From positions 372,001 through 436,000 of the forward strand of contig BPHB01000002.1 of the NCBI GenBank assembly GCA_026003335.1: a DNA stretch of 64,000 bases. The letters are read 5' to 3'. The position numbers were made by a program, and so were the translations under genes. The notes beneath the pieces were generated by a model that ran no database searches, was not told the origin of the DNA, and worked only from the letters and a program-made list of their open reading frames with translations. Positions within the stretch are counted from its first letter, which is position 1, and each line of letters opens with the position of its first letter. Below, piece after piece: positions 29,237 through 48,675 of the stretch. The DNA is from Chitinophagales bacterium. Its GTDB lineage: Bacteria > Bacteroidota > Bacteroidia > Chitinophagales > CAIOSU01.

Positions 29237-29605
29237 ATGAAAAACTTTAGAAAACTTCTCGTTTGGCAAAAATCCATGGATTCAGCAGAACAGGTTTTTG
29301 AGTTGGCAGCATTCCTGCCATCGGAGAAAAAATATGGATTGAAAAGTCAGATTACCAGAGCTGCTGTTTCAATTCCTACCAACATTGCGGAAGGAAGCAG
29401 CAGAAACAGTGACAAGGATTATCAAAGATTTCTTGAAATTGCGCTTGGCTCTGCATTCGAGTTGGAAACACAATGGATAATTGTAAAAAGGTTTAAAAAC
29501 GTGTATGCTGATTTGATAGATAATACTTTTAAGCTTCTTAATGAGGTACAGAGAATGCCAGGGGCGTTTATTGCCAAGTTATCTCGTCAAAAAACTAACC
29601 GCTAA
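29237..29605 (+). CDS. Four-helix-bundle protein (23S rRNA IVS/S23 family)
   Basis: A 122-aa all-alpha protein of the family found in 23S rRNA intervening sequences and, more often, as free-standing genes (PF05635-like). Family marks: FRKLLVWQKSMDSAEQVFELA at the start, the loop YGLKSQITRAAVSIPTNIAEGSSR, and the helix RFLEIALGSAFELETQ. It has no known biochemical activity. It lies between the two carboxylase subunits, an odd place, and is flanked by short imperfect inverted repeats. I infer insertion of a small mobile or recombining cassette. Confidence 0.9.
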   Translation: MKNFRKLLVWQKSMDSAEQVFELAAFLPSEKKYGLKSQITRAAVSIPTNIAEGSSRNSDKDYQRFLEIALGSAFELETQWIIVKRFKNVYADLIDNTFKLLNEVQRMPGAFIAKLSRQKTNR

Positions 29606-29624
29606 AAGCTAATGGCTAATGGCT
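29596..29624 (+). repeat. Right flank repeat of the four-helix-bundle insert
   Basis: TAACCGCTAAAAGCTAATGGCTAATGGCT contains two tandem GCTAATG units, the second of which supplies the ATG of the biotin carboxylase gene at 29619. Its end is the near inverted copy of the left flank (29205). Confidence 0.5.
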
Positions 29625-31599
29625 CATTCCATCACTAAAATATTAATCGCCAACCGCTCCGAGATCGCCATTCGCATCATGCGAACCTGCCGAAAGATGG
29701 GCATCGCAACAGTGGCTGTTTTTTCTGAGGCTGATAAGAATGCCCTTTTTGTAAAACACGCGGATGAAGGCATTGCCCTGGGCGGATATGCAGCAAGTGA
29801 CTCTTATTTGAATCAGGAAAAAATCATTGCCGCAGCAAAGCGCACCGGGGCAGACGCCATTCACCCGGGCTATGGGTTCCTGTCGGAAAACGAATCCTTC
29901 GCCAGGCGATGTGAGCAAGAAGGGATCCTGTTCATCGGCCCTAACTCCAAAGCCATTGAAGCCATGGGCGATAAAATACGGGCGAAAGAAATCATGCAAA
30001 AGCATGGGGTGCCGGTGGTGCCCGGCTATGACGGAGAAGATCAGTCCATGGAAACCCTCCGGAAAGAAGCAAAGAAAATCGGGTTTCCTGTTTTGCTGAA
30101 AGCCTCAGCCGGGGGCGGTGGCAAAGGCATGCGCATCGTGCGCGAGGAGAAAACGCTGGAAAAAGATATTGAAGGTGCCAAACGCGAGGCACTGAGCGCA
30201 TTCGGAGATGATACCTTACTGATTGAAAAATATTTTGACAGCGCACGACACATTGAGTTTCAAATTTTAGGCGACAAGCACGGCCAGGTGATACATCTCT
30301 TTGAGCGGGAATGCTCCATACAAAGACGCTATCAGAAAATCATAGAGGAATCGCCCAGCCCGGTGATGACCGATGCATTGCGCGAAAAGATGGCTGCAGC
30401 CGCCCTGAAAGCAGCCCAGGCAATTAAATATGACAATGCCGGAACTGTAGAGTTCATCGTGGACGATAAACTGCATTTTTATTTTCTGGAAGTGAACACC
30501 CGGCTTCAGGTGGAACATCCGGTAACCGAAATGGTCACCGGCCTGGATCTGGTGAAACTGCAGATTGAAGTTGCGCAGGGGCTGCCGCTTCCGCTCAGCC
30601 AAAATGACGTGAAGCAAAACGGCCATGCGGTGGAGTGCCGCCTCTATGCGGAAGATCCCTACAACCATTTTCTGCCGGCCACCGGAAAAGTGCTTGCCTA
30701 CCTTCCCGATGAAAGCGGTTGCACCCGCTACGACAGTGGTGTAGAAAACGGTTCGGTGATTGACATCCACTACGATCCGATGATCGCCAAGGTGATTACC
30801 TGGGGCAATACGCGCAGCGATGCCATCCGCAAGATGAAACATGCGCTGCGGAGAGACCGTCTTGCTGGGTGTTGTTACAAACAAAAACTTCCTCATTGAT
30901 ATTCTGGATCACCCGGATTTCACTTCAGGAAAATTCAGCACACATTTTATCCAACAACATCCGGAGCTCACAAGCCGTAAGGCGCCTGCTGAAAAAAGCC
31001 TCCATCACGCAGCCATAGCCGCCACACTCTGGATGTGGCATCAGCGGGAAACTGATAGGGTACTGTTAAAGCATCTTCCCTCTGGCTGGCGTAACAATTT
31101 TTATAAAATGCAGGAAGAAAAATTTGCGGTACAGGATCAGGAAATAACAGTACTTTACAGGAAGCTCTCAGAAGGTTTCCACATGAAAATTGCGGATAAA
31201 GAATATTTCGCTGAACTGTTTCAGGCAACAGGTAATCGTATTACCTGCGAAATGGAAGGCCATCGCAAAACTTTCATTATTGCGCAATCAGCGGAAACTC
31301 TTTTCATCCATGATGATGGAACGGGAAGCGTAATGCTGAAAATGCTCCCGCGCTTCCCCGAAGCAGAAGCCGAGAAAGTGAAAGGCGGCTATATTGCACC
31401 AATGCCGGGCGAAGTGGTGAAAGTGCTGGTGCAGCCCGGTGATAAGGTAAAGGCCGGAGACCCGCTGGTGATTCTCAGCTCGATGAAAATGGAAAATACC
31501 ATTGAAGCCCATGAAGAAGGCATAGTGGAAGAGGTTTATGTAGAGCCCAAACAATTTGTGGAAGCGGAAATGATGCTTGTTAAAATAAATTCAAAATAG
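29619..31599 (+). pseudogene. Biotin-dependent acyl-CoA carboxylase alpha subunit, broken by a 1-bp frameshift
   Basis: Two frames together encode a standard ~660-aa alpha subunit (biotin carboxylase, BT domain, biotin carrier). Frame 1 (29619-30899) has SITKILIANRSEIAIRIMRTC, HPGYGFLSEN, the ATP-grasp loop ASAGGGGKGMRIV and EVNTRLQVEHPVTEM, then turns to nonsense after KMKHALR. Frame 2 continues from ETVLLGVVTNKNFL (codon GAG at 30853) to 31599 and ends with the biotinyl domain; the target lysine in SSMKMEN is codon 31486-31488. One extra base near 30852 accounts for the break. It could be a true lesion or an assembly error; I cannot tell. If real, the enzyme loses its carrier domain. It pairs with the beta subunit upstream. 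Confidence 0.85.
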
Positions 31600-35336: not shown

Positions 35337-36158
35337 GTGATGAAGACCATTCAGGTTTTATCTGCCCGGCCGGATTCTTTTAAAACTTATCTGCTGAAGA
35401 TATGGCAAAACAGGGCTCTCATTACCACACTTGCCAAAAGAGACCTGAAAATTAAATACGCCCAGACTTTCTTCGGGGTGCTGTGGGTTATGCTCCACCC
35501 GCTACCCTCGGTAATTATTTTTACCTTTTTTTTTGATCGGCTGATACAGGTAGATACCGGTCCGCTGCCTTATCCGATTTTTGCCCTTATTGGCATGACG
35601 GGGTGGTATTTCTTTACTAATCTGGCTTTCGGGGCAGGCAATTCTCTCATTGAATCCCAACAGCTGTTAAAAAAGCTTGCCTTTCCGAAGCTGATCCTGC
35701 CCCTGTCTAAAGTGCTATCCACCGGGGTGGATTTTATTATGTCCTTCTTTATTACCATCCTGGCAATGTTCCTGTTTTCGGTATATCCGGGCTATACGGT
35801 AGTCTTTCTGCCGTTATTTATCCTGCTGAATATCTTTATAGGGCTGACGCTGGGAATATGGCTTTGTGCAGTATCGTTCCGCTATCGCGATGTGCACCAT
35901 TTTCTGCCCAACGTAGTGAATTTTCTGGTATGGCTCACCCCGGTTTTTTATCCTACTACTATTTTGCCGGAGAAGTTGCATTACCTGATGTACATCAATC
36001 CCATCGCTCTGGTGATTGAGGGGTATCGGTTTTCACTCACCGGCATGGCTTTGCCCTCACCCTGGTATGCCTTGTCAATGATTCCGGTGCTAATTTTATT
36101 TCTAGTAGGAATTACTTACTTTAGAAAAATTGAAGATAAAATCGTTGATTACATTTAA
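35337..36158 (+). CDS. ABC-2 type export permease (Wzm/TagG-like)
   Basis: A 273-aa integral membrane protein with about six transmembrane segments, of the ABC-2 family used for polysaccharide, O-antigen or teichoic-acid export. Features: ALITTLAKRDLKIKYAQTFFGVLWVMLHPL before TM1 (the amphipathic coupling region), GMTGWYFFTNLAFGAGNSLIE, and FLVWLTPVFYPTTILPE near residue 200, the usual Wzm signature. Its partner ATPase is not adjacent but lies at 47398, across the PhyH array. It starts a tight + strand unit to 42544, beginning 12 bp before the first PhyH gene. Substrate unknown. Confidence 0.85.
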   Translation: MMKTIQVLSARPDSFKTYLLKIWQNRALITTLAKRDLKIKYAQTFFGVLWVMLHPLPSVIIFTFFFDRLIQVDTGPLPYPIFALIGMTGWYFFTNLAFGAGNSLIESQQLLKKLAFPKLILPLSKVLSTGVDFIMSFFITILAMFLFSVYPGYTVVFLPLFILLNIFIGLTLGIWLCAVSFRYRDVHHFLPNVVNFLVWLTPVFYPTTILPEKLHYLMYINPIALVIEGYRFSLTGMALPSPWYALSMIPVLILFLVGITYFRKIEDKIVDYI

Positions 36159-36170
36159 ACACCCTCAGCC

Positions 36171-37019
36171 ATGAGAAATGTTTTTCGCAATCCTGACCTG
36201 CAAAAACAGTTCAATAAAACCGGGTATGTGGTTGTTGACCTGCTTTCTCCCTCTGAAGTAGATGAGTTATTGCATCTTTACGAAGCTATAGATGGCGTCA
36301 AGGGCACTTTGCGCACCAATAAGGATAACACCTACGAACTCAGCTTTTTTGAAAAGGATGTGCTTTCCAAGCGTAGAAAGTTTGATGCGATGTACAACTT
36401 CTTCAAACCTCATCTGGATCGCTTTCTGGACAATTACAAGCCCATTATCATCAACCTGTTTAACAAGCAGCAGGGCATAGGAGAAGTGCCGGTGCATCAG
36501 AACTGGACCTTTGTGGATGAACGGCAGTTTACTTCCGTTTCCGTGTGGTGTCCTTTGCAGGATGTAAGCCGAAAGAACGGCACGCTGGAAGTAGTGCCGG
36601 GTTCTCATAAGGTTATTTGTGATTATCGTGGTCCGTCCATACCCTGGGTCTTTGACAATCTGAGTGAGATTATGAAAGAAAAGTACATGGTGCCCCTTGA
36701 ACTACGAGCCGGGCAGGTGGGTATCATTGATGACGGTGTAATCCACTACTCAGGGAATAACCATACTTCGGATGACAGGCGCGCTGTTCAGCTTATTATG
36801 AAACCGGCCGAAGCACCTACCATTCATTGCTATAAAGACGAAGTCGATGACAATATCATCCACATCCTGGAAGTAGATGATGATTTTTTCTTTGACTTCA
36901 ATATGTGGGACAAACCCCGCGGAGGCAGAAAACTGAACTCAATTCGTTACCCTATAAAAAAACTAACGGAACAAGAACTGTTGGAACGCTGCAACCGCAA
37001 TCTGGCTGCAATGGTATGA
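36171..37019 (+). CDS. PhyH-like dioxygenase domain 1 with a substituted iron ligand (H-x-N)
   Basis: A 282-aa phytanoyl-CoA-dioxygenase-family protein (Fe(II)/2-oxoglutarate fold). The double-stranded beta-helix is clear: VSVWCPLQDVSRKNGTLEVVPGSH, LRAGQVGIIDDGVIHYSG and DRRAVQLIMKP. The usual first metal pair H-x-D reads His109-Gln-Asn111 (HQNW), so the Asp ligand is replaced by Asn; the distal His192 is present. The enzyme may have weak or no activity, or use another metal set. It starts MRNVFRNPDLQKQF-x-K-x-GYVVV, the same opening as its paralogs, and sits 12 bp after the permease. No substrate can be assigned. Confidence 0.85.
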   Translation: MRNVFRNPDLQKQFNKTGYVVVDLLSPSEVDELLHLYEAIDGVKGTLRTNKDNTYELSFFEKDVLSKRRKFDAMYNFFKPHLDRFLDNYKPIIINLFNKQQGIGEVPVHQNWTFVDERQFTSVSVWCPLQDVSRKNGTLEVVPGSHKVICDYRGPSIPWVFDNLSEIMKEKYMVPLELRAGQVGIIDDGVIHYSGNNHTSDDRRAVQLIMKPAEAPTIHCYKDEVDDNIIHILEVDDDFFFDFNMWDKPRGGRKLNSIRYPIKKLTEQELLERCNRNLAAMV

Positions 37020-37022
37020 TTT

Positions 37023-37859
37023 ATGCAAAATATTTTCAAAGACTCCTCTATCAATCAGGCGATTGAGAAAAACGGCTTTGCTGTAATACCTTTTATTGAC
37101 AGCCGTATCGCTGAGGAGCTCAAAAGATTTTACGCTTCCCTACCCGCTGCGCAGGGTGCCACCGGCACACATGTAACCATGTTTAATCCTTCTTCAGACT
37201 ATCGCAGGAAGGTGCATGAAAAAATTTCTGAACTATGCGGCAGTCGCGCTACCCAACTCACGCATGGCTATCGTGTGCTGTACACCAATTTTATGATAAA
37301 AGAACCGGGGCCGGAAGGAAACTTTCCGGTGCATCAGGACTGGACATACGTAGATGAAAAACAATATACTTCTATCGCCTTCTGGATACCTCTGCATGAC
37401 GTAGATGCGCGCAACGGGGCACTGCATGTGGTCAGAGGCAGTCATCATTTCCTGACTGCGTTACGCGGACCCTATGTGCATGAACCGTTTCAGCATCTGA
37501 GCGATGTGATTAAAAACCATTTCTCTGAACCGGTTAACCTCAAAGCCGGAGAAGCGCTGGTATGGGATCACCGGCTGATACACTTTTCCCTGCCTAACTT
37601 AACCAGCCAGCCTCGGTTGGCATTTACCCTGATAATGGTTCCGCAACAGGCTCCCGTGTGCCATTGCTACGGGCTGCCGGAATCACAGGGTACGTTGATT
37701 GAATTGTATGAAGTGGATACCGAGTTTTACATGCATTACACTATCGGCCAGCGTCCGCAGGGAGTAAAATTACTTACAACTATAAAACAGCCTGCATTGT
37801 CATTTACGCCCCAACAATTTGAAACAACCTACTTCAGATATAATCGCCCCGGATGCTGA
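37023..37859 (+). CDS. PhyH-like dioxygenase domain 2
   Basis: A 278-aa Fe(II)/2-oxoglutarate dioxygenase of the phytanoyl-CoA family. Ligands seen: His104 and Asp106 (HQDW) and His187 (RLIHFS), with the 2OG-binding basic residue probably in TSQPRLAFTLIMVP. Supporting strands: TSIAFWIPLHDVDARNGALHVVRGSH and LKAGEALVWDHRL. The gene follows the first paralog by 3 bp and is followed by the methyltransferase after 1 bp. Unlike paralog 1 all ligands are intact. Confidence 0.85.
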   Translation: MQNIFKDSSINQAIEKNGFAVIPFIDSRIAEELKRFYASLPAAQGATGTHVTMFNPSSDYRRKVHEKISELCGSRATQLTHGYRVLYTNFMIKEPGPEGNFPVHQDWTYVDEKQYTSIAFWIPLHDVDARNGALHVVRGSHHFLTALRGPYVHEPFQHLSDVIKNHFSEPVNLKAGEALVWDHRLIHFSLPNLTSQPRLAFTLIMVPQQAPVCHCYGLPESQGTLIELYEVDTEFYMHYTIGQRPQGVKLLTTIKQPALSFTPQQFETTYFRYNRPGC

Positions 37860-37860
37860 T

Positions 37861-38631
37861 ATGGCGGAGAACTACAAAAAGCAATCAGATAAAGTTGCTG
37901 CCTACTACGACCATTGGCAGCAAGGATATAATGAGGTTTATGGCAACTTTATTCAGGCTTTTCGCCCCTCGGATGTAGATGAGTTGATGCAATACATTGC
38001 CGCCAGCGCCCATATTCATGACGGCCTGAAAATTCTGGATGCCGGATGCGGTGTGGGTGGCCCGGCCATCTGGTTGGCTTCCCGCTTCAACATTGAAATA
38101 GCAGGTATCACAATTTCCGAAGTGCAGGTAAGCCAGGCTCAGGAGCACGTCAGACAGAGTGATTTGAGTGATAAAGTGTCTATTACCCAGGGTGACTATC
38201 ATGAGCTCTCCCGGCACTATCCGGCTATGTATTTTGACCGTGTTTTGTTTCTGGAATCTTTAGGGCATGCCGGAGACCCTGCCAGAGTGATTCGTGAAGC
38301 GTGGACTACACTCAAGCCGGGAGGCAGCATCTATATCAAAGATTTTTATTACAAAGAACCAGATGATGCATACTGGAGCACCCGAATCCGGAAAACCATG
38401 GAAAACATCAATCGGCTGTATGCATACAACTGCCTGAACCTAACCGAGATTATAACAGCACTGCGGAGAACGGGATTTGAAATTGACTTTATCCGGAAAT
38501 TTGCTTTTAAAGATGATATATCCGTTAGGCAGGAATTTGAAACCCGTTTCGGCATTGACATCTTTGGCGGAGAACCGGAGTTTTATCCTGCCGAATGGCT
38601 GGAAATAAAATGCATCAGACCACAATCATGA
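37861..38631 (+). CDS. SAM-dependent methyltransferase
   Basis: A 256-aa class I methyltransferase. The SAM loop is LDAGCGVGGPAIWLA (motif I) near residue 60, with ITISEVQVSQAQEHV, ITQGDYHEL and the FDRVLFLESLGHAGDP strand. LKPGGSIYIKDFYY is the post-motif. It resembles small-molecule and lipid methyltransferases (UbiE/cyclopropane type), but the acceptor is unknown. I chose the ATG at 37861, 1 bp after the PhyH stop, over a TTG at 37819. The 3' end overlaps the next gene by 4 bp (ATGA), so it is translationally coupled to the array. Confidence 0.88.
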   Translation: MAENYKKQSDKVAAYYDHWQQGYNEVYGNFIQAFRPSDVDELMQYIAASAHIHDGLKILDAGCGVGGPAIWLASRFNIEIAGITISEVQVSQAQEHVRQSDLSDKVSITQGDYHELSRHYPAMYFDRVLFLESLGHAGDPARVIREAWTTLKPGGSIYIKDFYYKEPDDAYWSTRIRKTMENINRLYAYNCLNLTEIITALRRTGFEIDFIRKFAFKDDISVRQEFETRFGIDIFGGEPEFYPAEWLEIKCIRPQS

Positions 38632-40268
38632 GTCAAACCGTTTTTTACGATGCAACCCTGCAGCAAATCTTTGAGCGGGAAGGGATTGTTTCTCTACCCC
38701 TTTTTAGTAAAGAGGAATTGGTTTACCTTCAGGAGATATACCAGCAAACCCTCCCTCCCTCCCACGGTCTTAGCTTTCACTCCACCATGTTTATTCCTGA
38801 TATGGATTACCGAAAAAAAACCGACCAGGTCCTCCGTTCCATCCTATCCGGCAAAATCAACCGCCTCCTTAAAGAGTATCGCTTGCTCTTCGCCAACTTT
38901 ATCACCAAGGAGGCTTCTCCCGACACTGCCGTAGGTATTCATCAGGACTGGAATTTCACCTCTCCCGAATACCTGTCGCTGAATATCTGGATACCCCTGG
39001 TAGATATTGATAAAAAAACCGGGCTTTTCTATGCCCTGAAGGGAAGTCACCACGTATTTTCCAACCTGCGCTATACACCCTATGAAACAGATGCCTATGC
39101 GGAACTGGAAAATTACATCCGGAAAAATGCCACACCCTTCCGCGTGCGGGCCGGTGAAGCATTGATTTACCATGGTGCCATGGTGCATTTTTCCGACCCC
39201 AATATATCAGGGCAGCCTCGCATAGCGGTGGGGTGCGCGCTTATACCCCAGTCGGCTCCCAATCTGCATTACTACCGCAGGCCACAAGACAAGAAAATTG
39301 AAATCTTTACAGTAGATGAATCCTTTTATCATAGTTTTAATTTCTTTGAAAGGCCTGCCCGAGCGGAAAAAACAGGTGAACTGAATGCATGTCCTGGTCT
39401 TCCTGCTCTGTCTGAATTAATTTCAAACCGTATGAGCTCCATGCGCAGAATATTCAGGAACGATGTGTTGGAAAGCGAAATTTCCCGCAAAGGATATGTG
39501 ATAATCCGCAACATGGTAGAGGAGCAGGTTTGTGATGACCTCTATCATTTTTTTGATCAGCATGACACGGTTGATCATCGCCCTTTTTCCATCACGAATT
39601 GGAGCAATAATGCCGCATATCGCAGTAAAACATTTCAGTACATTGCAGAAAAACTGCTGCCCGTAAGCCGGCAATATCTACTCAACTACCGGCCGGTGAT
39701 GGGTGTATTTACTGCCAAGCGCCCATCAGTAAAAAGTGACATGCTGCTGCATCAAGATTGGAGCCTTGTGGATGAAAGTGTATTTCGCTCAGTAAGCGTT
39801 TGGGTTGCCTTATGCGACATGAACAAGCGCAACGGCAACCTGCAGGTAGCCGAATACAGCCACCTGTATGCAGGCTTGCCGCGTGGAATGAACATCCCGG
39901 TGCCCTTTGAAGATCTGCGTCAGGAAATTCAAACTCATTTTTTGACAGACCTCCCACTCGCCAAAGGCGATGCTGTTGTTTTCGATCACCGCCTTATTCA
40001 TGCTTCACCGGAAAATCAAACCGAGCGTATCAGGCTGGCTGCGGTGTTGGCGTTGATTCCTTATGAAGCCGATTTGATTCATTATTACAAGTACGTGGAT
40101 AACGACCACGAGCTGGAAATTTTGAAAATGGATGAAGGGGCATTTCATCTGATTGACTTTTTTGATATGCCTAATAAGCCCCGCCATATAGAAGTTTTAA
40201 AGACTATTCCGGCTGAATTCGGGTCTATCACTAAAGAAGATATTCTTCAATACTATTCCCATGTATGA
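38628..40268 (+). CDS. Tandem two-domain PhyH-like dioxygenase
   Basis: A 546-aa fusion of two complete PhyH domains (paralogs 3 and 4). Domain 1 has His105-x-Asp107 (HQDW) and distal His in MVHFSDPN; domain 2 begins near Met272 with MRRIFRNDVLESEI-x-RKGYVII, the same opening as the stand-alone paralogs, and has His375-x-Asp377 (HQDW) and RLIHASPEN. The internal opening suggests that two neighbouring genes became one by loss of a stop codon. The start overlaps the methyltransferase stop by 4 bp, and its end overlaps the next gene by 4 bp. Substrate unknown; two active sites could act on two positions of one molecule (inference). Confidence 0.85.
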   Translation: MSQTVFYDATLQQIFEREGIVSLPLFSKEELVYLQEIYQQTLPPSHGLSFHSTMFIPDMDYRKKTDQVLRSILSGKINRLLKEYRLLFANFITKEASPDTAVGIHQDWNFTSPEYLSLNIWIPLVDIDKKTGLFYALKGSHHVFSNLRYTPYETDAYAELENYIRKNATPFRVRAGEALIYHGAMVHFSDPNISGQPRIAVGCALIPQSAPNLHYYRRPQDKKIEIFTVDESFYHSFNFFERPARAEKTGELNACPGLPALSELISNRMSSMRRIFRNDVLESEISRKGYVIIRNMVEEQVCDDLYHFFDQHDTVDHRPFSITNWSNNAAYRSKTFQYIAEKLLPVSRQYLLNYRPVMGVFTAKRPSVKSDMLLHQDWSLVDESVFRSVSVWVALCDMNKRNGNLQVAEYSHLYAGLPRGMNIPVPFEDLRQEIQTHFLTDLPLAKGDAVVFDHRLIHASPENQTERIRLAAVLALIPYEADLIHYYKYVDNDHELEILKMDEGAFHLIDFFDMPNKPRHIEVLKTIPAEFGSITKEDILQYYSHV

Positions 40269-41164
40269 AGTGGCTGCAATCCATATTACCCTCACGCAAG
40301 CCGTCTGGTGCGGAACGATTTGCATTTCCGTTTTTCCGCGATCGTACGATACAGCAGGAAATAGCGCAAAAAGGATTTTCAGTGCAGCCCCTTCTTTCGC
40401 TGGAAGAAGTGGAGCTTCTGCGACAGGATTTTTTCAGGCTGGTGGAAATGCTTCCAGAGCCACTGCCTGACAAGCACTGGACAAGCGGCCGCGTGGACGA
40501 TCCCGAAATCAGAAATTTTGCCCGTCAGGCTATTGAAAAAATCGTGCCCCGCAGACTGGAACAATACTTTGATCCTCGTATCACCGACTTTATCGGAGGC
40601 ATATTCCTGGCCAAAAAGCCTTCTCCGGTTAGTGAGTTAACTGCACATCAGGACAGCTCTCATACCGATGAAACCAGGTATCCGGCAGCCTATGCATGGA
40701 TTGCCCTCACCGATACCACGCCTGAAAACGGAGCTATGCATGTGTTGCCCGGCAGCCATTTATTTGGCAATCGCTTCCGCTCTTTGAACGTTCCCTGGCT
40801 GTACGCGGGGATGGAAGAACTCATGACCCCATATCTGGTTCCCGTTTCTATGAAGGCCGGTGAGGTTTTGTTTTTTGATAGTGCCGCCATCCATTATTCA
40901 TCCAATAATATGAGCAGTTACATACGTCCTGCAATCAACTATTTCATTAAACCCAAAGAGGCTCTTTTTCTCCATCATTACATAGATGAAAAAACGCCTG
41001 CCGGTTTTGTGGAAGTTTATCATGTAGATATTGATTTTTTTTACAATTGCGATTTTATGCAGCGCCCTCCCTGCCCGCCTTATCGTAAGCTGGGAATGGA
41101 GCCGGCTATTCCTCCCCTGCAAAAGGAGGATTTTAAAGTTTTATTAAGAAAATATTGCCGTTAA
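40265..41164 (+). CDS. PhyH-like dioxygenase domain 5
   Basis: A 299-aa PhyH-family protein with a longer N-terminal extension (about 20 residues) and an Asp/His site His128-x-Asp130 in AHQDSSHTDE, plus the strands AYAWIALTDTTPENGAMHVLPGSH and MKAGEVLFFDSAAIHYSSNN. The distal ligand lies in AAIHYS. It is more divergent from the others. The start overlaps the two-domain gene by 4 bp and its stop abuts the arylsulfotransferase GTG, so the whole unit is coupled. Confidence 0.83.
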   Translation: MKWLQSILPSRKPSGAERFAFPFFRDRTIQQEIAQKGFSVQPLLSLEEVELLRQDFFRLVEMLPEPLPDKHWTSGRVDDPEIRNFARQAIEKIVPRRLEQYFDPRITDFIGGIFLAKKPSPVSELTAHQDSSHTDETRYPAAYAWIALTDTTPENGAMHVLPGSHLFGNRFRSLNVPWLYAGMEELMTPYLVPVSMKAGEVLFFDSAAIHYSSNNMSSYIRPAINYFIKPKEALFLHHYIDEKTPAGFVEVYHVDIDFFYNCDFMQRPPCPPYRKLGMEPAIPPLQKEDFKVLLRKYCR

Positions 41165-42544
41165 GTGCAGCACATAAATAAAGCATTGAGTATTGCCGTC
41201 TGCCTGGGCTTTTCTTTTACCATGACAGGGCAGGCCCCTTTTTTCGTACCCAATAAAGACCTATCGTTGACTTCTGAATGGAGCAATCTGGAGGGATACT
41301 ACTTCCTCTCACCGGTTCAAATCACCCCGGTTATCTCCACCAGCTCCCATCTGGTCATTCTGGACGATGATTTGAATGTAGTATTCTATAAGGCTTTTCC
41401 CCGTCCGAAAAATCACAGCGGCATCGGGGGCGTATCTATGGATTTCAAAATACACAAAAACGGGCTGATGTCTTTCTATCATCATGATGGGCAGCAGGGT
41501 GCATTTTACCTCATGGACAGCACCTTTCGGATCGTGGATACCCTGACCTGCATCAATAAATTCACAGATTCACACGGATTGCAGATTCTGAAAGACGGAT
41601 CTTATTACCTCCTCTGCAATGATTCCCGCTACGCGGATTTAAGCAATAGTAAGTATTTCAATACACGGAAGATGAGTACACGGACAGAAGTAAGGGGCAC
41701 CGGCTCAGTAATTCAACACATCAGCAAAAACAAAAAGCTGCTTTTTGAATGGAATGCCTTTGACCACTGCCGGTATGAGGATGAAATACTGGTTTATGTA
41801 GATAACGACACCATGATAGACTGGGGGCACGGCAACAACATTACCATAACCGATGACGGTAATTTACTGCTCACCTTGCGCAATTTCTGGCAGGTATTGA
41901 AGATTTCACGAAAAGACGGATCTGTGCTTTGGCGGCTGGGAGGGAACAGAAGTGATTTTACCTTCATCAATGACAGTGCCGGATTCAATCATCAACATGA
42001 TGCTGAGTTGCGCGGCAATCTGCTGTCGGTTTTTGATAACGGAAAATATCACAATCCTCCTCTTGCAAGGGCACTCATTTACAAACTGGATTTTAATCAC
42101 AAAACCGCTGAAAAAGTTTACGAATACAAACACCATTTTCATTACAGCTCTGACGCTCAGGGTAGTTTTCAGCTTTTGCCCAATGGGTATAAACTCATAT
42201 CCTGGGGTAAGGGCAATGATCAGCTCCTATTTGATATCACACAGCTTGACCGGAATGATTCCATTATGTTTGAACTGGATCTCGGCCGCAACTATCAGAC
42301 TTTCCGGGCCTTTTATGGTGATATTCCCTGGGAACTGAAACGTCCGGTCATCACCTGTTTTAAAAAAGATGGAAAGATTTACCTGGATGCCGGACCCGGT
42401 TACAAAGAATACATCTGGTCTAATGGTGAAAAGACGCGGATTATTGAAGCACAAGAGGGGCACAGGTATCAGGTCTTCGTCAATCAGGGGATTGGACTTA
42501 TAGGCTCCCGAGTGATCAATCCTTCATTGAAATGCAACTTATAG
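41165..42544 (+). CDS. Arylsulfotransferase-like secreted protein (ASST family)
   Basis: A 459-aa protein starting at a GTG abutting the previous stop, with signal peptide residues 1-22 (ends FTMTGQA). The rest is a beta-propeller-like chain with DSHGLQILKDGSYYLLCND, WGHGNNITITDDGNLLLTLRN, VLWRLGGNRSDFTF, GFNHQHDAELRGN and FQLLPNGYKLISWGKGN, the pattern of arylsulfotransferase (PF05935/PF14269-like) proteins. Family enzymes move sulfate from phenolic sulfate donors to acceptors in the periplasm, with a catalytic His; which His this is I cannot say. It ends in overlap with the convergent PAPS-type sulfotransferase gene (42539). It closes the + strand unit. Confidence 0.72.
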   Translation: MQHINKALSIAVCLGFSFTMTGQAPFFVPNKDLSLTSEWSNLEGYYFLSPVQITPVISTSSHLVILDDDLNVVFYKAFPRPKNHSGIGGVSMDFKIHKNGLMSFYHHDGQQGAFYLMDSTFRIVDTLTCINKFTDSHGLQILKDGSYYLLCNDSRYADLSNSKYFNTRKMSTRTEVRGTGSVIQHISKNKKLLFEWNAFDHCRYEDEILVYVDNDTMIDWGHGNNITITDDGNLLLTLRNFWQVLKISRKDGSVLWRLGGNRSDFTFINDSAGFNHQHDAELRGNLLSVFDNGKYHNPPLARALIYKLDFNHKTAEKVYEYKHHFHYSSDAQGSFQLLPNGYKLISWGKGNDQLLFDITQLDRNDSIMFELDLGRNYQTFRAFYGDIPWELKRPVITCFKKDGKIYLDAGPGYKEYIWSNGEKTRIIEAQEGHRYQVFVNQGIGLIGSRVINPSLKCNL

Positions 42545-43591
42545 TCTATCGGGTGTCGCAAGCAGTTCCATCTGTGTCTGCAAGCTTTTTATAAAGTCCT
42601 GCCGCGGCTTCAGATGAGCCAGCTCTTCGGGAGTAGCCCTTTTCCAGGCCTCTCTCTTAAGACGGTTATTTTCCTCTTCAAAAGCCAGCAACTCACTGAT
42701 TGAAAATCCTGCCTGTGGCACTGCCTCTGCCGTTTCCCCAAGATTATTATAACCAAGCCTGAGCAGCATATCACCGGCTTCCCCTTCAAAGATGGCCACT
42801 TCTTCATTTGTAAGACGGTCATGATATTTACCCGTATTGTTTTTTATAATCGGACGAGACACATTTTCCCACATTCTTCCGGCTAAAGCAGTCTTCCTGG
42901 ATTCAGGAGATTTATAATAGGCTAAGACCGATTTGTCAAACGCAACTCCTGTTTTTTCACATATCTCACGAATGTATTTTTCCGGCTCCTTTATGAAATC
43001 TTCATACCGGATGATGCTAAAGGCCCCGGAAGGAAGTTTTTGAAGAAATAGGAGCGCCAGTTCCTGCTCTATTTTCCATTTGTTTGCCAGAAAGTAGATG
43101 TGCTTATCTCCTATAAGAATATTTCTGAATGAAGCGGCCACATCACGTCCATCGCGATAGAGGTATATAAAAAAGGGACGGTGTCCCTCCCGTTCAAAAT
43201 GATGCAAATGATAAACGGTTTCCATGCTCTTGCAGCACCACACTTTTTTCCGGCTTTTTTCACACTGCAACTCATACGTGCGGATAAAAACCTCCAGCAA
43301 AGACCGGTGCCGGCAACGGTGCATAATGGTATCCCGCTCCAGTGGCAGGTTATCCCAAGGCACAGGATTTAGTTCCACCAATCGGCAGACATCCTCCACC
43401 AGCCTGGTAAAATTTTTATCCTCTTGCAGATTGCCATAGATTTTCAATAGCGGATAAAACGTGTGCAGGATATGGGGAGGATGAGGCGCAAAGACTTCCG
43501 GCAGCTGATTCAGCATCACACGCAACAGATTGCTGCCGGAACGCTGCGTTCCGATAAACTGTATGGCATGAAAATGAGGTTGTGTTTGCAG
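42539..43591 (-). CDS. PAPS-type sulfotransferase, 5' end uncertain
   Basis: A cytosolic sulfotransferase-domain protein. The 5'-phosphosulfate-binding loop FIGTQRSGSNLLRVML lies upstream of every in-frame ATG or GTG: the first ATG (43525) and GTG (43528) follow it. In-frame, only a CTG at 43591 (after a TAA at 43606-43604) is available, and I use it as the outer limit. An ATG at 43569 is out of frame by one base; one more T in the following TTT run would give MPYSFIGTQRSG, a normal start. The second signature YLYRDGRDVAASF (3'-phosphate binding) is near the middle. It transfers sulfate from PAPS to an unknown acceptor. It is the last gene of the reverse unit with three PhyH genes. Confidence 0.75.
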   Translation of the reverse strand: MQTQPHFHAIQFIGTQRSGSNLLRVMLNQLPEVFAPHPPHILHTFYPLLKIYGNLQEDKNFTRLVEDVCRLVELNPVPWDNLPLERDTIMHRCRHRSLLEVFIRTYELQCEKSRKKVWCCKSMETVYHLHHFEREGHRPFFIYLYRDGRDVAASFRNILIGDKHIYFLANKWKIEQELALLFLQKLPSGAFSIIRYEDFIKEPEKYIREICEKTGVAFDKSVLAYYKSPESRKTALAGRMWENVSRPIIKNNTGKYHDRLTNEEVAIFEGEAGDMLLRLGYNNLGETAEAVPQAGFSISELLAFEEENNRLKREAWKRATPEELAHLKPRQDFIKSLQTQMELLATPDRL

Positions 43592-43673
43592 AAACGAATG
43601 TTTTTAGGTTATGAATAAATAGGAAGCACAAAATTTCTCCAAAAAAGAATACTTCCTTTAAAAAAGTACAAAT

Positions 43674-44462
43674 TTATTGCTTCAGGGATGGTGCAATGCC
43701 GGCAAGCTGTTCGCTGCTCAAGGTGGCTACCACTTTTCCTTCTGGTCTTTTACCCAGTTGAAAACGCTGATAGTATGCATCATCCAGTTCAATAATCTCC
43801 ACCCTATCATCTTTCATGTAATAAAACCATACGGGGGCCTCCTGAGGCAACAAAACAGAAACGGCTGCAATGCGAGGCTGCCCGGACAAGTTGTCTCCGG
43901 AAGCGTGCAGCAAGGCATGACTGAAAAACAAAGCCTGTCCGGCCTTCATGCCTATAGTACGCATTTTGCCCAGCAAATACGCTTCCTGTCCGGCAAAGGG
44001 TTTGGGTATGGTTGGACTACGGGGAACCTTATATTCAAGATGGCTACCTTCCAGAACTTTCATAGCACCATTATGCTCATCCACGTCTGTGAGCGGTATC
44101 CAAACCGAAAGAGAAACGAACTGTGATTCATCGGTAAAGGTATCGTCCTGATGTACAGGCCAACTGCTTGCGGGCGCACTGTTTTTCACTGCAAAACAAT
44201 TGATCAGCGTTTTACAGTCAACCAGCATGGTTTGTATCTTCGGGAAAAGCACCGGCTGCAGCAACTGATGTATCTGTCTGCGTAGCTCTACATTCTGATT
44301 ATCCCAGAGGGTGAGATAAAATCCCCGTGAGCGCTTATCTCCGTATTGCTCATAAATGGCTTTCAGTTGCTCCACCTCACCGCTACTCAGAAAGGAAGTA
44401 ACTACATAACCGTATTTGCGGAAATGCTCCTCGTAAAGTTTGTTGTGGAAAATTTTTCTCAT
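43674..44462 (-). CDS. PhyH-like dioxygenase domain 6
   Basis: A 262-aa PhyH-family protein with His104-x-Asp106 in HQDDTF, LSVWIPLTDVDEHNGAMKVLEGSH, MKAGQALFFSHALLHASGDN and the IAAVSVLLPQEAP strand. It opens MRKIFHNKLYEEHFRKYGYVV, the family start. Its start overlaps the end of the next paralog by 4 bp. It is part of the reverse unit of three PhyH genes and the sulfotransferase. Confidence 0.85.
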   Translation of the reverse strand: MRKIFHNKLYEEHFRKYGYVVTSFLSSGEVEQLKAIYEQYGDKRSRGFYLTLWDNQNVELRRQIHQLLQPVLFPKIQTMLVDCKTLINCFAVKNSAPASSWPVHQDDTFTDESQFVSLSVWIPLTDVDEHNGAMKVLEGSHLEYKVPRSPTIPKPFAGQEAYLLGKMRTIGMKAGQALFFSHALLHASGDNLSGQPRIAAVSVLLPQEAPVWFYYMKDDRVEIIELDDAYYQRFQLGKRPEGKVVATLSSEQLAGIAPSLKQ

Positions 44463-45277
44463 TGCACTTGCAGATATGACAATAATTCTTCTTCGCTGAT
44501 GGGTCGCGGTATGTATTTTCTTATTCCCTTGCTGGGGTATCCTTCAGGGCGCTGATGCTTGCTAAAACTGAGCCAGAAATCCACATTTACTTCAAACTCT
44601 TCAAATTCACCAGGCGCAAGACCGGGATAATGAAAATAGGCAATGGGTGTTGCCTCACGGGGAATAATGCCGCTGATGACAGCCGGCCGTTCCTTACCGG
44701 ATACATTAGGCAAGGAATTGTGAATCAGACGTGGGTCATAAATGAGTGCTTCTCCTGCCCGCATCGGACACACCATCATTTTAGGACCATATACATGCCG
44801 GAAATCCCAGAAACGATAAGGAATACCAAACCCCCGGTAGGGATTGGGTATTTTATGACTTCCTGGCAACACACGGACGGCTCCGTTGACCTCATCGGTG
44901 TCAACCAATGGAGACCAGATATTTACCGAAGTGTATAGTGATTCATCTACCAGACAATCGTCTGTATGATCGTAAATGGTACTGTCAGGGCCGGTTTTAA
45001 CTATGAATGTTGCGGCAAGCGAGATATAATCTACAAATAACTCCTCAACAGGACGTTTGAAAAAGCCCTTTAGAAAAGTATCCGCTTGTGCACGATACTC
45101 CACATCGCGGCAATCAATGGAGGAATAAAAATCGCGTGTAGACTCGCGAGGCTTCACCGCATCATAAAAGGCACGCATGGCTTTTACCTCTTCGGCAGAA
45201 AAGAGGGGCAGGATAAAATATCCCTGCTTCAGAAAAAGCTCCTGCAAGGCTGCATCTTTAAAAATGGGTCTGTTCAT
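44459..45277 (-). CDS. PhyH-like dioxygenase domain 7
   Basis: A 272-aa paralog with His104-x-Asp106 in DHTDDCLVDE (HTD rather than HQD), TSVNIWSPLVDTDEVNGAVRVLPGSH and MRAGEALIYDPRLIHNSLPN. I chose the ATG at 45277 because MNRPIFKD is aligned with the openings of the other paralogs; an alternative ATG at 45295 would add six residues. It overlaps the upstream paralog by 20 bp. Confidence 0.83.
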   Translation of the reverse strand: MNRPIFKDAALQELFLKQGYFILPLFSAEEVKAMRAFYDAVKPRESTRDFYSSIDCRDVEYRAQADTFLKGFFKRPVEELFVDYISLAATFIVKTGPDSTIYDHTDDCLVDESLYTSVNIWSPLVDTDEVNGAVRVLPGSHKIPNPYRGFGIPYRFWDFRHVYGPKMMVCPMRAGEALIYDPRLIHNSLPNVSGKERPAVISGIIPREATPIAYFHYPGLAPGEFEEFEVNVDFWLSFSKHQRPEGYPSKGIRKYIPRPISEEELLSYLQVQ

Positions 45278-46094
45278 ATTGCTTTTTGTAGTCATTCAGA
45301 CGTGCAATGAGCTCTTGCCCGGTAATCTGTGTAGCAGCTGGCGGAATTTCTCCCACCTTTCTGTATTTTTCAATACTATCGCCAAAAGCAAATTCTTCCA
45401 GAAAGTGGTCATCGGCTTCATATCGGCTAATGATACCGGTTTGCTCATCACGAAAGTAATGAATCATGCGGGCTTCCTCCGGTATCAATACGATGCCGGC
45501 TGCCACCCTCACCTGTGCAGAGAGATTGTCACCCGAAGCGTGAAACAAACGATGGTCAAACGCCACCGCGTCTCCTGCCTTCATTTCCAGAGGCGTAAGG
45601 TATGCATTGGGAATTTCTCCCACGCCAGTGCCAATATTAGAGCCCCGGATATTACCGGATACGCGATGTGAACCGGCCACCACGCTCATACATCCATTGT
45701 GCTGTGATACATCACACAGCGCGCACCAGATAGTGATGCCCACAAAACGATCTTCGTCAATCAACGTCCAGTCCTGATGTATTTTAAATGCACTGCCTCT
45801 GCAGGGTTGTTTAATCAGATAGTGACCGTAAACTGACTTGTATCCCGTTATGAGCGTAGCAGCCGAAGGGTAAAGCAGCCGCTGCAAATACTCGCTTGTT
45901 TTTTTCCGGAAGTTATAATCTTTGCTCCAGTGCGAAGTAAAAAAGGGCTCATTTACCCCTGCTTCCGGGGCTACAGATTCATAAAAAGCCAGAGCCTGAC
46001 GCACGCTCCCGGCATCTAAAAAGCCTGGAATCACCACATACCCCAGCTTCCTGAATGCTTCATCTCTAGCGATGTCTGTAAATATGCGATTCAC
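45258..46094 (-). CDS. PhyH-like dioxygenase domain 8
   Basis: A 278-aa paralog and first gene of the reverse unit. His106-x-Asp108 (HQDW), VGITIWCALCDVSQHNGCMSVVAGSH, LEMKAGDAVAFDHRLFHASGDN. It opens MNRIFTDIARDEAFRKLGYVV. The 160-bp region upstream separates it from the divergent acyltransferase; this region may hold both promoters, though neither is a clean match to consensus. Confidence 0.85.
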   Translation of the reverse strand: MNRIFTDIARDEAFRKLGYVVIPGFLDAGSVRQALAFYESVAPEAGVNEPFFTSHWSKDYNFRKKTSEYLQRLLYPSAATLITGYKSVYGHYLIKQPCRGSAFKIHQDWTLIDEDRFVGITIWCALCDVSQHNGCMSVVAGSHRVSGNIRGSNIGTGVGEIPNAYLTPLEMKAGDAVAFDHRLFHASGDNLSAQVRVAAGIVLIPEEARMIHYFRDEQTGIISRYEADDHFLEEFAFGDSIEKYRKVGEIPPAATQITGQELIARLNDYKKQYEQTHF

Positions 46095-46253
46095 GAATTT
46101 TTTAAGTAAATGTTCAAGTTCGCATCAAAAAATACACCTCCTGAGTATAAAAGTCAATGATTTTGAAGAAACTATCCTGCCTTATCTCCTCAGGCTTTTC
46201 CCCTCATGAAACGATGAGCGGCTTTATCTTTACCATCATTTTCTGACATTGCT

Positions 46254-47387
46254 ATGGGAACGTTGCGATTTATCTATGTCATCACTTTTCTGCTGGGTCA
46301 TATTTATTCCATGTTTGGCTTCCGATACCATGAGTTGGCTTCGTCACCGATAGCCTACGAATCATTTTTCATGCTTTCGGGGTTTTTTATCACATTGGTA
46401 TGGGAAAAAGAATATGGTGTTGCTGAAAAGGGTTATCTGAAGTTTCTGCTCCGCAGAATCTTACGCATCATGCCGGTTTATTGGCTGGTGCTGATATTGT
46501 CTATTGTCATTTCATTTATATCGTGGAGATTATTTCAGGAACCGCTCTTGCTGCAGTCGTATCTGCAGCACTGGGATGACCTCAACTGGAATGTAAAAGC
46601 CTATCTGATATTTGCCAATCTTTTTATTCTCGGACAGGAAGCCCTGTTTTATGTAAAAATAGATTATACCAGCGGGTGCTTTCAATGGTCGCAGCAGTTT
46701 ATTGATGGCGATCCTCCTTTGCATACTTTTCTGTTTGTTTCGCAGGCATGGATGATTAGTTTCATTTTCTACTTTTACCTGATTGCCCCGTTGCTCTGCC
46801 GGCTTAAGAGTCACTGGCTGGTGTTGCTTTCAGCAGTGCTGATAGCAGCGCGTTTCATTGGCTACAGGATGGGATATGATTATGAACCGTGGGTTTATCA
46901 TTTCTACCCTTTTGAATTTGTATTCTTTCTCTTCGGGATGCTTTCAAGCAGGATTTACCTGCGCTACACAGAGGTGTTTGCCCGGTATAAAAAGCCCGGC
47001 TTTGTGTTATTCGTTTTTATAGCTGTTCTCACCTGCATGCTGGACGCTATTTCTCTTCCTGCTTTTACCATTCAGCGAGCCTACTATACCCTGCTTTTTT
47101 TCACTATGCCGATTATCCTGGAGGCTACTTCGGGAAATAAATGGGATAGTTATCTGGGTCAGCTTACTTATCCTCTTTATATCTCCAATTTTATAGTAAT
47201 CAAAATTATTGAAACGCAGCACATAGAAAACCGGGCTGTGCTGATGATTTCCTTTTTTGCCGCCTCCATTTTACTGTCTATGTTCCTGCTGAAATATTTC
47301 AATCAACCGATTGACCGCTATGTGAAACGCTGGCTGCTGCGTCCTGCCCGTACAGACCGGAGAATAGCCTTATTTTCAGACAGCTAA
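46254..47387 (+). CDS. Membrane O-acyltransferase (acyltransferase 3 family)
   Basis: A 377-aa integral membrane protein with about ten hydrophobic segments. The beginning has the family histidine in FLLGHIYSMFGFRYH, followed by FFMLSGFFITLVWEKEY and LRRILRIMPVYWLVL, typical of OafA/YrhL-type acyltransferase 3 proteins, which add acetyl or other acyl groups to surface glycans and lipids. The C-terminal SGNH domain found in some relatives is absent. It ends 10 bp before the ATPase gene, so it opens the third unit. Confidence 0.85.
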   Translation: MGTLRFIYVITFLLGHIYSMFGFRYHELASSPIAYESFFMLSGFFITLVWEKEYGVAEKGYLKFLLRRILRIMPVYWLVLILSIVISFISWRLFQEPLLLQSYLQHWDDLNWNVKAYLIFANLFILGQEALFYVKIDYTSGCFQWSQQFIDGDPPLHTFLFVSQAWMISFIFYFYLIAPLLCRLKSHWLVLLSAVLIAARFIGYRMGYDYEPWVYHFYPFEFVFFLFGMLSSRIYLRYTEVFARYKKPGFVLFVFIAVLTCMLDAISLPAFTIQRAYYTLLFFTMPIILEATSGNKWDSYLGQLTYPLYISNFIVIKIIETQHIENRAVLMISFFAASILLSMFLLKYFNQPIDRYVKRWLLRPARTDRRIALFSDS

Positions 47388-47397
47388 TTCCGCTCAG

Positions 47398-48675
47398 ATG
47401 GATCAACCAATTGTAATTGTAGAGGGGCTCTCCAAGGTCTACCGAATTACAGGCAAACAGTCGGGCAGTATTTTCTCCGAAAAGCTAACCGAGGTAAAGG
47501 CCGTGCACGATGTTTCATTTGAGCTTAAAGAAGGCGAAATATGCGGGCTGATAGGGAAAAACGGAGCCGGCAAAACTACGCTGCTGGAAATGCTCAGCGG
47601 CATTGTCAAGCCCAGTGCAGGCAGAATTACATTCAAAGGCAAGGTGGCTTCAGTAATTGATATCGGAACCGGTATGCACCAGGATCTTACCGGCATTGAA
47701 AATATCTATCTTGCCGGAAACCTGCTGGGCTACAGCAATAAAGAAATAAAAGAAAGACTACCCGACATCATTGCCTTCAGCGAGCTGGGCGATTTTATCA
47801 AACGGCCGGTGAAATATTACTCCAGCGGCATGTTTATCAGACTTGCATTTTCAACCTTGACGCATCTGGAGGCAGATATTCTGCTCATTGATGAAATTAT
47901 CGGAGTGGGCGATATTGCCTTTTCAGAGAAAGCGCTTAAACGTATCATGGACATCTGCCGCAAAGGAAAAACCGCGCTCATTGCCAGCCATAGTATCTCT
48001 TTTATCACCTCCAGCTGTAACACCGCCATGTACATGCACCAGGGCAAACTTATAGACAAGGGCCCGGTTTCGGAAATCATTGAACAATATGTTGAGCAGA
48101 TATTGCAGGAAACTTCCTTTTCTCCGGGAATAATATCTCCTCCTCAATCATCATCGGCATCAGCATTACAACCACGGGTAAAAGACATCAGGCATTCGAA
48201 AAACTATCAAAACCCTGATCAGGCTTTTAACAATGGCATCCGCCTGATAAAGGCTGAAATATCCAGCCCCGACAGCCAGGAGGAAGAATTTACCATGGAA
48301 AATACGCTCATCCTCTACCTGGAAACGGAAATAGATCTGGAGGAAGAAGTCATTATGTCGGTGCATTTTAATTACAACTATAATCAACCAGGCCTATGTC
48401 TTTCGCCTCTGTATAGCAAACAGCCCTTTGTTCCTCTTAAAGGGAAAGGACACTATCGGTTCCAGACCACCATACCCAGCGGAATCATGAATGCAGGCCT
48501 TTATACGATTTCTGTCTTTTTTGCCAGCTTGCAGCACGAACTTTTAAGTCAATACAAAAACATTATTGTCTTTAAAATCAGGCTTCCGCATGCTATGGAG
48601 GCCAACAACTATTATGAAGGAGGATTTGCCGGCCCTGTATTTCTGAAGACACACTGGCAAATGACTTCCTGCTGA
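47398..48675 (+). CDS. Wzt-like ABC-transporter ATPase with C-terminal binding domain
   Basis: A 425-aa ABC ATPase of the polysaccharide/O-antigen exporter type. Walker A GKNGAGKT at residues 53-60, signature SSGMFIRL near 142-149, Walker B ILLIDEIIGVGD, and SHS in the switch loop. The C-terminal ~150 residues (after ~260) form an extra beta-rich domain (LYLETEIDLEEEVIMSVHFNY, FQTTIPSGIMNAGLYTISVFF) like the substrate-selecting Wzt domain. Its permease is likely the one at 35337, separated by the PhyH array. It would energise export of a decorated glycan or lipid. Confidence 0.9.
   Translation: MDQPIVIVEGLSKVYRITGKQSGSIFSEKLTEVKAVHDVSFELKEGEICGLIGKNGAGKTTLLEMLSGIVKPSAGRITFKGKVASVIDIGTGMHQDLTGIENIYLAGNLLGYSNKEIKERLPDIIAFSELGDFIKRPVKYYSSGMFIRLAFSTLTHLEADILLIDEIIGVGDIAFSEKALKRIMDICRKGKTALIASHSISFITSSCNTAMYMHQGKLIDKGPVSEIIEQYVEQILQETSFSPGIISPPQSSSASALQPRVKDIRHSKNYQNPDQAFNNGIRLIKAEISSPDSQEEEFTMENTLILYLETEIDLEEEVIMSVHFNYNYNQPGLCLSPLYSKQPFVPLKGKGHYRFQTTIPSGIMNAGLYTISVFFASLQHELLSQYKNIIVFKIRLPHAMEANNYYEGGFAGPVFLKTHWQMTSC

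Follow-up and report, generated by a model that had tools for sequence, protein, structure and literature searches.

PhyH-Type Oxygenase Arrays in Wzm/Wzt-Type Export Loci of Bacteroidota and an Apparently New HxN Subfamily

The DNA studied here is a stretch of 64,000 nucleotides from a Chitinophagales bacterium (hereafter "the window"; G000:C2:372001-436000, in a genome of 3.9 Mb and 24 contigs), in which genes for phytanoyl-CoA dioxygenase-like (PhyH) proteins lie between the permease and the ATPase of an ATP-binding cassette (ABC) exporter of the Wzm/Wzt type. This locus probably tailors and exports a cell-surface glycan, a set of oxygenases and a methyltransferase acting on the glycan that the exporter carries. 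One of the oxygenases belongs to an apparently new PhyH subfamily, called HxN below, in which asparagine takes the place of aspartate in the metal triad HxD...H.

Eight PhyH Domains Between the Two Halves of an Exporter

A first-pass annotation, made from the sequence alone, had described seven genes with eight PhyH-like domains, in three gene units, flanked by an ABC-2 permease on one side and a Wzt-like ATPase on the other, and all of this was borne out. With the Pfam profile PF05721, eight domains were found in seven open reading frames (ORFs), all above the curated cut-off of 22 bits (E 6e-20 to 3e-38); the whole genome has nine PhyH matches in its 3.9 Mb, eight of them inside one stretch of about 10 kb of the window. 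The genes form three runs, on the + strand (35337-42544), on the − strand (46094-42539), and on the + strand again from 46254, and the two exporter genes flank the array (Table 1, where each gene is named by its lower coordinate). In the alignment of the eight domains, both histidine ligands and the 2-oxoglutarate (2OG)-binding arginine, which follows the distal histidine, are invariant; seven domains have the HxD...H triad, as the annotation had also claimed, the exception being gene 36171, which reads HQN...H. The shared openings that it described were overstated: exact GYVV is found in three of the seven proteins, and M-R/N-x-x-F is not common to all.

Recurrence and Gene Order of the Arrays

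The window's own genome and 59 relatives were searched for PhyH; 31 of these 60 have matches, and 10 of the 60 have 7 to 17 each. A first set of 20 stretches was taken from 13 genomes (12 relatives and the region of the ninth PhyH gene of G000); with the window, it holds 109 PhyH matches, of which 107 were placed in a tree, a weak match in L036 and a fragment in L032 having been dropped. Most window domains pair in this tree with domains of other genomes, above all G037, and the array is therefore an old set of paralogs rather than the local family expansion first proposed: the paralogs are old orthologous groups, found across genera, families, and differently titled orders, often in the same gene order. 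Recent local duplication was rejected for most domains on these grounds; domain 43674 and the second domain of 38595 form one small clade in our trees, together with a G037 domain.

The HxN alignment, run against a GTDB-based collection of 84,980 species, gave 79 loci, which are mostly conditioned on asparagine, as one search pattern demands HxN; of 119 related stretches, 80 were kept. The loci of the scan are almost all titled Bacteroidota and nearly all come from metagenome-assembled genomes (MAGs), under titles such as Chitinophagales, Flavobacteriales, Fluviicola, Saprospiraceae, and Sphingobacteriales, with one Verrucomicrobia and one Lysobacterales. It had been suggested to look for the same gene order in other Bacteroidota, and related arrays do recur there, often in one order. 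Orthologous groups were defined on a tree of 194 domains from 28 loci chosen for length and variety. In 19 of these loci, groups B and C come after the HxN gene (group A*), and the full order of permease, A*, B, C, methyltransferase, and Wzt is found in eight (L040, L063, L064, L093, L097, L100, L103, and L104); C is followed there by F, L, P, or others, and A* has H-D, O-D, or G beside it. By title, L093 and L103 belong to Fluviicola, L064 to Cytophagaceae, and L097 to Crocinitomicaceae. The other chosen loci have some of the ordered genes missing within the retrieved stretch. The window locus is itself a divergent version. Groups A*, J, and N occur in it as they do in L038 and L039; its remaining domains belong to none of the named groups, and Wzt and three of the PhyH genes stand in separate runs from the permease-A* run.

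The company of the exporter was counted in a set of 80 non-redundant HxN loci. In 49 of them each flank extends for 5 kb or more; the permease was found in 35 of these, Wzt in 30, the methyltransferase in 31, and three or more PhyH genes in 43. Permease and Wzt occur together within the retrieved stretch in 34 of all 80 loci. In 37 of 73 testable loci, the gene next to HxN on its upstream side encodes a homologous permease, and in 46 the permease is one of the two nearest genes on that side. Several genomes also have PhyH arrays of a second type that lack HxN (L026, L031, L033, and L017:6706-10225); L031 has its own permease and Wzt, and L033 has Wzt.

Methyltransferase-PhyH Fusions

Fusions of the methyltransferase with PhyH were found in 14 ORFs of 11 distinct loci, in both orders, either as methyltransferase-PhyH-PhyH (850-851 aa) or as PhyH-methyltransferase (493-611 aa), which ties the methyltransferase to the oxygenases. 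When compared with the 851-aa fusion L019:10658-13213, the window methyltransferase is 48% identical over 245 aa and the window two-domain PhyH protein 31% over 527 aa; these two neighboring genes look like the unfused equivalent of the three-domain form. The start of the two-domain gene 38595, as read from the sequence, is probably at 38628, overlapping the methyltransferase stop by 4 bp. The best matches of the methyltransferase family profile are 3bus (which we take to be RebM), MitM, and the D-glucose O-methyltransferase 6uv6. The role of the methyltransferase as a core partner, like that of the HxN gene as a conserved orthologue, had not been recognized in the first-pass annotation.

An O-Antigen-Type Exporter and the Case for a Glycan

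A profile of the Wzt family matches full-length O-antigen-type Wzt (8dku/7k2t) over positions 8-370 of 400 (E 2e-92), and a profile of 10 sequences of its C-terminal domain matched the carbohydrate-binding domain 8dky/6o14 (E 1.2e-5); all four structures are, we presume, of the Aquifex aeolicus O-antigen transporter. The genome has five ABC2_membrane matches; a second ABC-2 permease and Wzt-like ATPase adjoin each other on contig C1, and the split pair of the window is thus an additional system. The exported product had been proposed to be a glycan or a lipid, oxidized by the paralogs in a succession of steps that is hypothetical; of the two we favor the glycan because Wzt carries an O-antigen-type carbohydrate-binding domain. 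The same domain led us to rank lower a lipid-only substrate, which the PhyH name and the desaturases beside the ninth PhyH gene on contig C3 might suggest.

HxN neighborhoods are rich in glycosyltransferases and sugar-modifying genes and, by this gene content, the neighborhood is that of a cell-surface glycan. Fold neighbors of HxN such as SnoK, SnoN, AviO1, HygX, and EvdO2, and a PhyH gene in an LPS cluster of Xanthomonas citri, both described below, also favor this reading. Recurrent neighbors are a UbiA-like cluster (24 of the 80 loci), proteins resembling glycosyltransferases, FabH, GNAT, and radical-SAM enzymes, and further 2OG oxygenases; these names were given by eye, except for UbiA of L028 and L036, for which Pfam was run.

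We would, thus, picture the locus as follows. Permease 35337 and ATPase 47398 would carry a lipid-linked polysaccharide across the inner membrane, the C-terminal domain of Wzt binding the exported chain. Before export, in the cytoplasm, the PhyH enzymes would oxidize different sugar positions with Fe(II), 2OG, and O2, and the methyltransferase would O-methylate the glycan; both might act on the lipid-linked glycan or on its nucleotide-sugar precursors. The exporter perhaps recognizes the modified glycan end and, in the window strain, the sulfotransferases and the acyltransferase probably add further groups. The domains, the gene order, the orthology, the fusions, the conservation of HxN, and the Wzt domain are observed; the glycan substrate, the order of the steps, and all of the chemistry are what we infer from these genes.

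Several observations weigh against this reading. There is no glycosyltransferase in the conserved core; phosphoethanolamine N-methyltransferases and others come next after the top methyltransferase matches; a proline hydroxylase, PHYHD1, and fungal terpenoid/alkaloid enzymes score nearly like the sugar enzymes in the structural comparison described below; and the C-terminus of the window Wzt, taken as a single sequence, gave no relevant match, a profile being needed. Among the 49 well-flanked loci, 14 have no homologous permease and 19 no Wzt. Nine of the 14 permease-less loci have at least five PhyH domains (L038, L044, L067, L071, L082, L085, L089, L090, and L113), so array and exporter can part, and the HxN genes of L042 and L111 are accompanied by neither an array nor an exporter. 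L108 has an HxN gene, one other PhyH gene, and no exporter. L023, in turn, has permease, Wzt, and groups B, C, E, and I without HxN, and its genome (G017) has no HxN match at 1e-60. The first-pass annotation had held that the same paralogs scattered in close genomes without the exporter genes would count against it; the permease is present in 35 of the 49 loci, and the 14 loci without it, together with L023, are what that concern retains. Taken at their strongest, the permease-less loci, nine of them rich in PhyH domains, would make the array an unrelated tandem expansion lying beside the exporter by accident. We consider this highly improbable: ABC2_membrane matches number only five in 3.9 Mb, yet the permease so often stands within two genes upstream of HxN (46 of 73), and the gene order recurs across differently titled orders.

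An unlikely but more serious alternative is that the product of the array is a small molecule, secreted or located in the membrane, such as an orthosomycin-like oligosaccharide antibiotic or an oxidized lipid, which the ABC exporter would secrete in place of a polysaccharide. The combination of PhyH, methyltransferase, sulfotransferase, and acyltransferase does resemble the tailoring of natural products, enzymes of such pathways are numerous among the nearest solved relatives, the FabH-like, radical-SAM-like, and UbiA genes recur nearby, and some arrays have no exporter in the retrieved stretch. However, a Wzt with an O-antigen-type carbohydrate-binding domain is a feature of polysaccharide export; no polyketide or nonribosomal peptide synthetase core was noticed in the loci examined, where no systematic search for one was made; and an order conserved across differently titled Bacteroidota orders would fit an envelope component better than a sporadic antibiotic.

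The HxN Subfamily

In the 107-domain tree, 12 HxN domains form one clade with full support in the Shimodaira–Hasegawa-like approximate likelihood-ratio test (SH-aLRT 100), the D/N column being masked. The HxN-profile score is no clean divider: in a set of 539 domains (first-set loci, collection-scan loci, L117, and the window, duplicates included), three of 449 HxD/HxG domains reach 200 bits, namely 37023 of the window, which at 212 bits is the HxD domain nearest to the profile, and one domain present twice, in L101 and L034 (204 bits), while the weakest HxN score is 222 bits in this set and 200 bits in the control stretches described below. As the score alone fails to divide HxN from HxD, distant HxN members were also put in a tree, in which a single branch sets off all 37 HxN rows with moderate support (82, D/N column masked), and a single Asp-to-Asn change thus suffices. 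A sequencing error or private mutation was ruled out by the clade and by the recurrence of HxN across loci.

The 539 domains comprise 447 HxD, 89 HxN, 2 HxG, and 1 unreadable, with never more than one HxN per locus; removing duplicates leaves 485 (402 HxD, 80 HxN, 2 HxG, and 1 unreadable), among which related strains remain. Both histidines and the arginine are kept wherever they can be read, and all three are seen in 87 of the 89 HxN domains, the other two being cut off. The subfamily has a further signature, an Asp-Asp pair five and four residues before the distal histidine, found in 88 of 88 readable HxN domains versus 1 of 447 HxD domains. To control for the asparagine bias of the scan, 40 stretches were drawn from whole-genome profile matches, leaving out genomes already sampled as well as G005, G006, G541, and G556. 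All 41 domains of at least 200 bits have asparagine there, and the other 45 are 42 with aspartate and 3 cut off; the pair before the distal histidine is Asp-Asp in 39 of the 41, Glu-Asp in one, and Cys-Asp in one.

Several genomes carry two or three HxN genes (for example G508, G567, G512, G520, G032, and G486). Distant HxN genes (200-266 bits) were also seen in other genomes of the order (L163-L170), two of them on opposite strands of the 8-kb stretch L170; such genes lie outside arrays, and the subfamily is therefore older or broader than the arrays. With the HxN profile at E ≤ 1e-60, matches are found in 49 of 396 genomes of the order and in 13 of 395 of the class, the window's own genome included; a sample of the phylum gave, at 1e-20, 2 of 395, namely the window's own genome and a second one with two PhyH domains, both HxD. 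HxN is, thus, frequent in certain families of the order but rare elsewhere. L102:1-20825, titled Lysobacterales, has a permease, Wzt, and six HxD PhyH domains without HxN, and PhyH arrays with such an exporter may therefore exist outside Bacteroidota.

HxN is the best conserved oxygenase of the set: in the same pairs of loci, its pairwise identity exceeds that of group B in 158 of 210, of C in 176 of 190, and of H in 36 of 36, and it is higher in most pairs against each of the eleven groups compared, which argues against a decaying gene. The AlphaFold2 model of 36171 is a confident PhyH fold (predicted local distance difference test score, pLDDT, 87.2; predicted template-modeling score, pTM, 0.88). 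Its best solved structures are SnoK (Z 18.4, root-mean-square deviation (rmsd) 3.4, 217 aligned) and SnoN (Z 18.1), two enzymes that act on a nogalamycin sugar, followed by the proline hydroxylase H11, AndA, PHYHD1, AviO1, MysH, and EvdO2, all near Z 16-17; HygX is also among the Foldseek matches. The fold does not fix the substrate, since enzymes on other substrates score nearly as well. The 36171 protein probably still binds metal and 2OG.

What the asparagine does is a separate question. One possibility, which we would not put at even chances, is that HxN has no catalytic activity of its own and assists the HxD enzymes in substrate binding, much as TlxI serves TlxJ. HxN is indeed fused to an HxD domain in 12 of the 80 non-redundant loci, and the PhyH-type heterodimer TlxIJ of talaromyolide, made of a variant subunit and a catalytic one, provides a precedent for an auxiliary PhyH subunit (PMC12141560); its structure 7vbq matches the HxN fold (Z 16.1, rmsd 3.5, 187 aligned). 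But TlxI lacks the 2OG-binding arginine (PMC12141560), whereas HxN keeps this arginine and both histidines, only the carboxylate ligand being changed. The high conservation of HxN also speaks against a dead partner, and a model of the fused protein gave no confident inter-domain arrangement (pTM 0.51), for which reason a fixed HxN-HxD contact was dropped. This alternative bears on the activity of HxN only and leaves the glycan reading of the locus as it stands.

HxN may instead be active, as our main reading has it. We hold it doubtful, though worth stating, that it would then be a non-haem iron enzyme with a conserved neutral third ligand and a chemistry other than plain hydroxylation (anion or halogen transfer, epimerization, or oxidative ring closure), which would build, with the HxD oxygenases and the O-methyltransferase, orthosomycin-like bridged or heavily oxidized sugars into a polysaccharide that these mostly uncultured Bacteroidota export to their surface. 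2OG halogenases of the SyrB2 type have an HxA/HxG triad. The carboxylate ligand is likewise lost in SyrB2, in a PhyH-like fold that was matched by profile (E 4.5e-4) and by Foldseek; unlike SyrB2, HxN has asparagine and not alanine or glycine, and we did not retain the label of halogenase for 36171. Two HQG paralogs, the only HxG domains among the 539, were seen in one MAG (L037:4685-5542 and L038:13093-13944, both on the − strand, 86% identical), in arrays sharing groups with the window; HQG is presumably a triad of the halogenase type, and their nearest window protein by BLAST is 43674 (32-34%).

Other Genes of the Locus and of the Window

The methyltransferase 37819, the arylsulfate sulfotransferase (ASST)-like protein 41165, the sulfotransferase 42539, and the acyltransferase 46254 are additions to the first-pass annotation, which was silent on them. 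The ASST-like protein has a distant counterpart beside the L077 array (26% over 276 aa), and the sulfotransferase has relatives beside the arrays of L077 and L113 (49% and 47.5% identical); the acyltransferase has no relative at E 1e-8 among the compared loci. Downstream of the locus lie genes for a nucleotidyltransferase, glycosyltransferases, an SGNH protein, and a sugar epimerase/dehydratase.

Table 1. Genes of the export locus, with window coordinates
Gene product	Coordinates	Strand	Evidence
ABC-2 (Wzm-like) permease	35337..36158	+	PF01061 ABC2_membrane, E 1.3e-15
PhyH, H-Q-N in place of H-x-D (HxN subfamily, group A*)	36171..37019	+	PF05721, E 1.3e-23
PhyH, HQD	37023..37859	+	PF05721, E 9.7e-22; alignment
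S-adenosylmethionine (SAM)-dependent methyltransferase, sugar O-methyltransferase-like; start probably ~37861	37819..38631	+	Methyltransf_31, E 7e-18
PhyH-PhyH two-domain protein, HQD + HQD	38595..40268	+	PF05721, E 3.1e-38, two stretches
PhyH, HQD, group J with L038, L039, L040, L067	40265..41164	+	PF05721, E 3.4e-20; tree
ASST-like (arylsulfate sulfotransferase family) protein	41165..42544	+	PF14269, E 3.2e-24
3'-Phosphoadenosine-5'-phosphosulfate (PAPS)-type sulfotransferase	42539..43525	−	PF13469, E 9.4e-13
PhyH, HQD	43674..44462	−	PF05721, E 5.8e-23
PhyH, HTD, group N with L038, L039	44459..45295	−	PF05721, E 6e-20; tree
PhyH, HQD	45258..46094	−	PF05721, E 9.8e-27
Acyltransferase 3 (OafA-like)	46254..47387	+	PF01757, E 5.2e-19
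Wzt-like ABC ATPase with C-terminal carbohydrate-binding domain	47398..48675	+	PF00005; profile matches

The ninth PhyH gene of the genome (L036:9995-10783, on G000:C3) is found between two fatty-acid desaturase genes, near UbiA, glycosyltransferase, and vitamin-K-carboxylase-like genes; in G037, a UbiA and a glycosyltransferase gene, of the same kinds, lie just upstream of the array permease. Elsewhere in the window, a biotin-dependent carboxylase alpha subunit, recognized by eye, appears to be split at 29619-31599 (+) between 29619-30899 and 30841-31599, two frames that overlap, as a frameshift or a misassembly would produce, and a small ORF at 29237-29605 (+), four-helix-bundle-like by eye, lies between what appear to be the two carboxylase subunit genes.

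Relation to Known Systems

Orthosomycin antibiotic clusters have a few oxygenases each. By gene content and fusions, the array loci resemble the orthosomycin systems of EvdO1/EvdO2/AviO1 and HygX, where PhyH-type oxygenases and methyltransferases occur together, and may likewise act on sugars; EvdO2 and 6ec3 (EvdMO1 by its title) were matched by an array profile, and EvdMO1 is reported to be a methyltransferase-oxygenase fusion, a type of fusion likewise found in array loci. The array loci differ from these clusters in their Bacteroidota hosts, in the O-antigen-type exporter and the HxN member, and in the number of PhyH domains, which reaches 11 per locus. Several PhyH-type 2OG oxygenases in each orthosomycin cluster are implicated in orthoester formation on oligosaccharides (PMC8234114).

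As in the Wzm/Wzt O-antigen transporter of 8dku/7k2t, the window exporter has a permease and an ATPase with a C-terminal carbohydrate-binding domain; unlike there, its two subunits are separated by the oxygenase array. A parallel by description is the lipopolysaccharide (LPS) cluster of Xanthomonas citri, where the PhyH gene XAC3597 lies beside wzt/wzm and where a transposon mutant of this gene, found in a biofilm screen, has reduced swimming and exopolysaccharide and/or LPS defects (PMC3130047). That locus, like ours, has a PhyH gene within a Wzm/Wzt polysaccharide locus; it differs in its gammaproteobacterial host and in that one PhyH gene is named there. In the open-access literature, we found no description of PhyH arrays in Wzm/Wzt loci nor of an HxN triad among the matches listed. 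The locus can, thus, be described as a putative glycan locus of the Wzm/Wzt kind that carries oxygenases and a methyltransferase in an orthosomycin-like combination, a gene set that is apparently undescribed.

One has to bear in mind that the diversity of surface polysaccharides usually comes from glycosyltransferases, acylation, and methylation. If our reading is true, a large group of environmental Bacteroidota would oxidize its glycans extensively before export, by means of an ordered set of up to eleven 2OG oxygenase domains. HxN, with one conserved change of a metal ligand in an otherwise intact site, would make the role of the carboxylate ligand of the superfamily directly testable.

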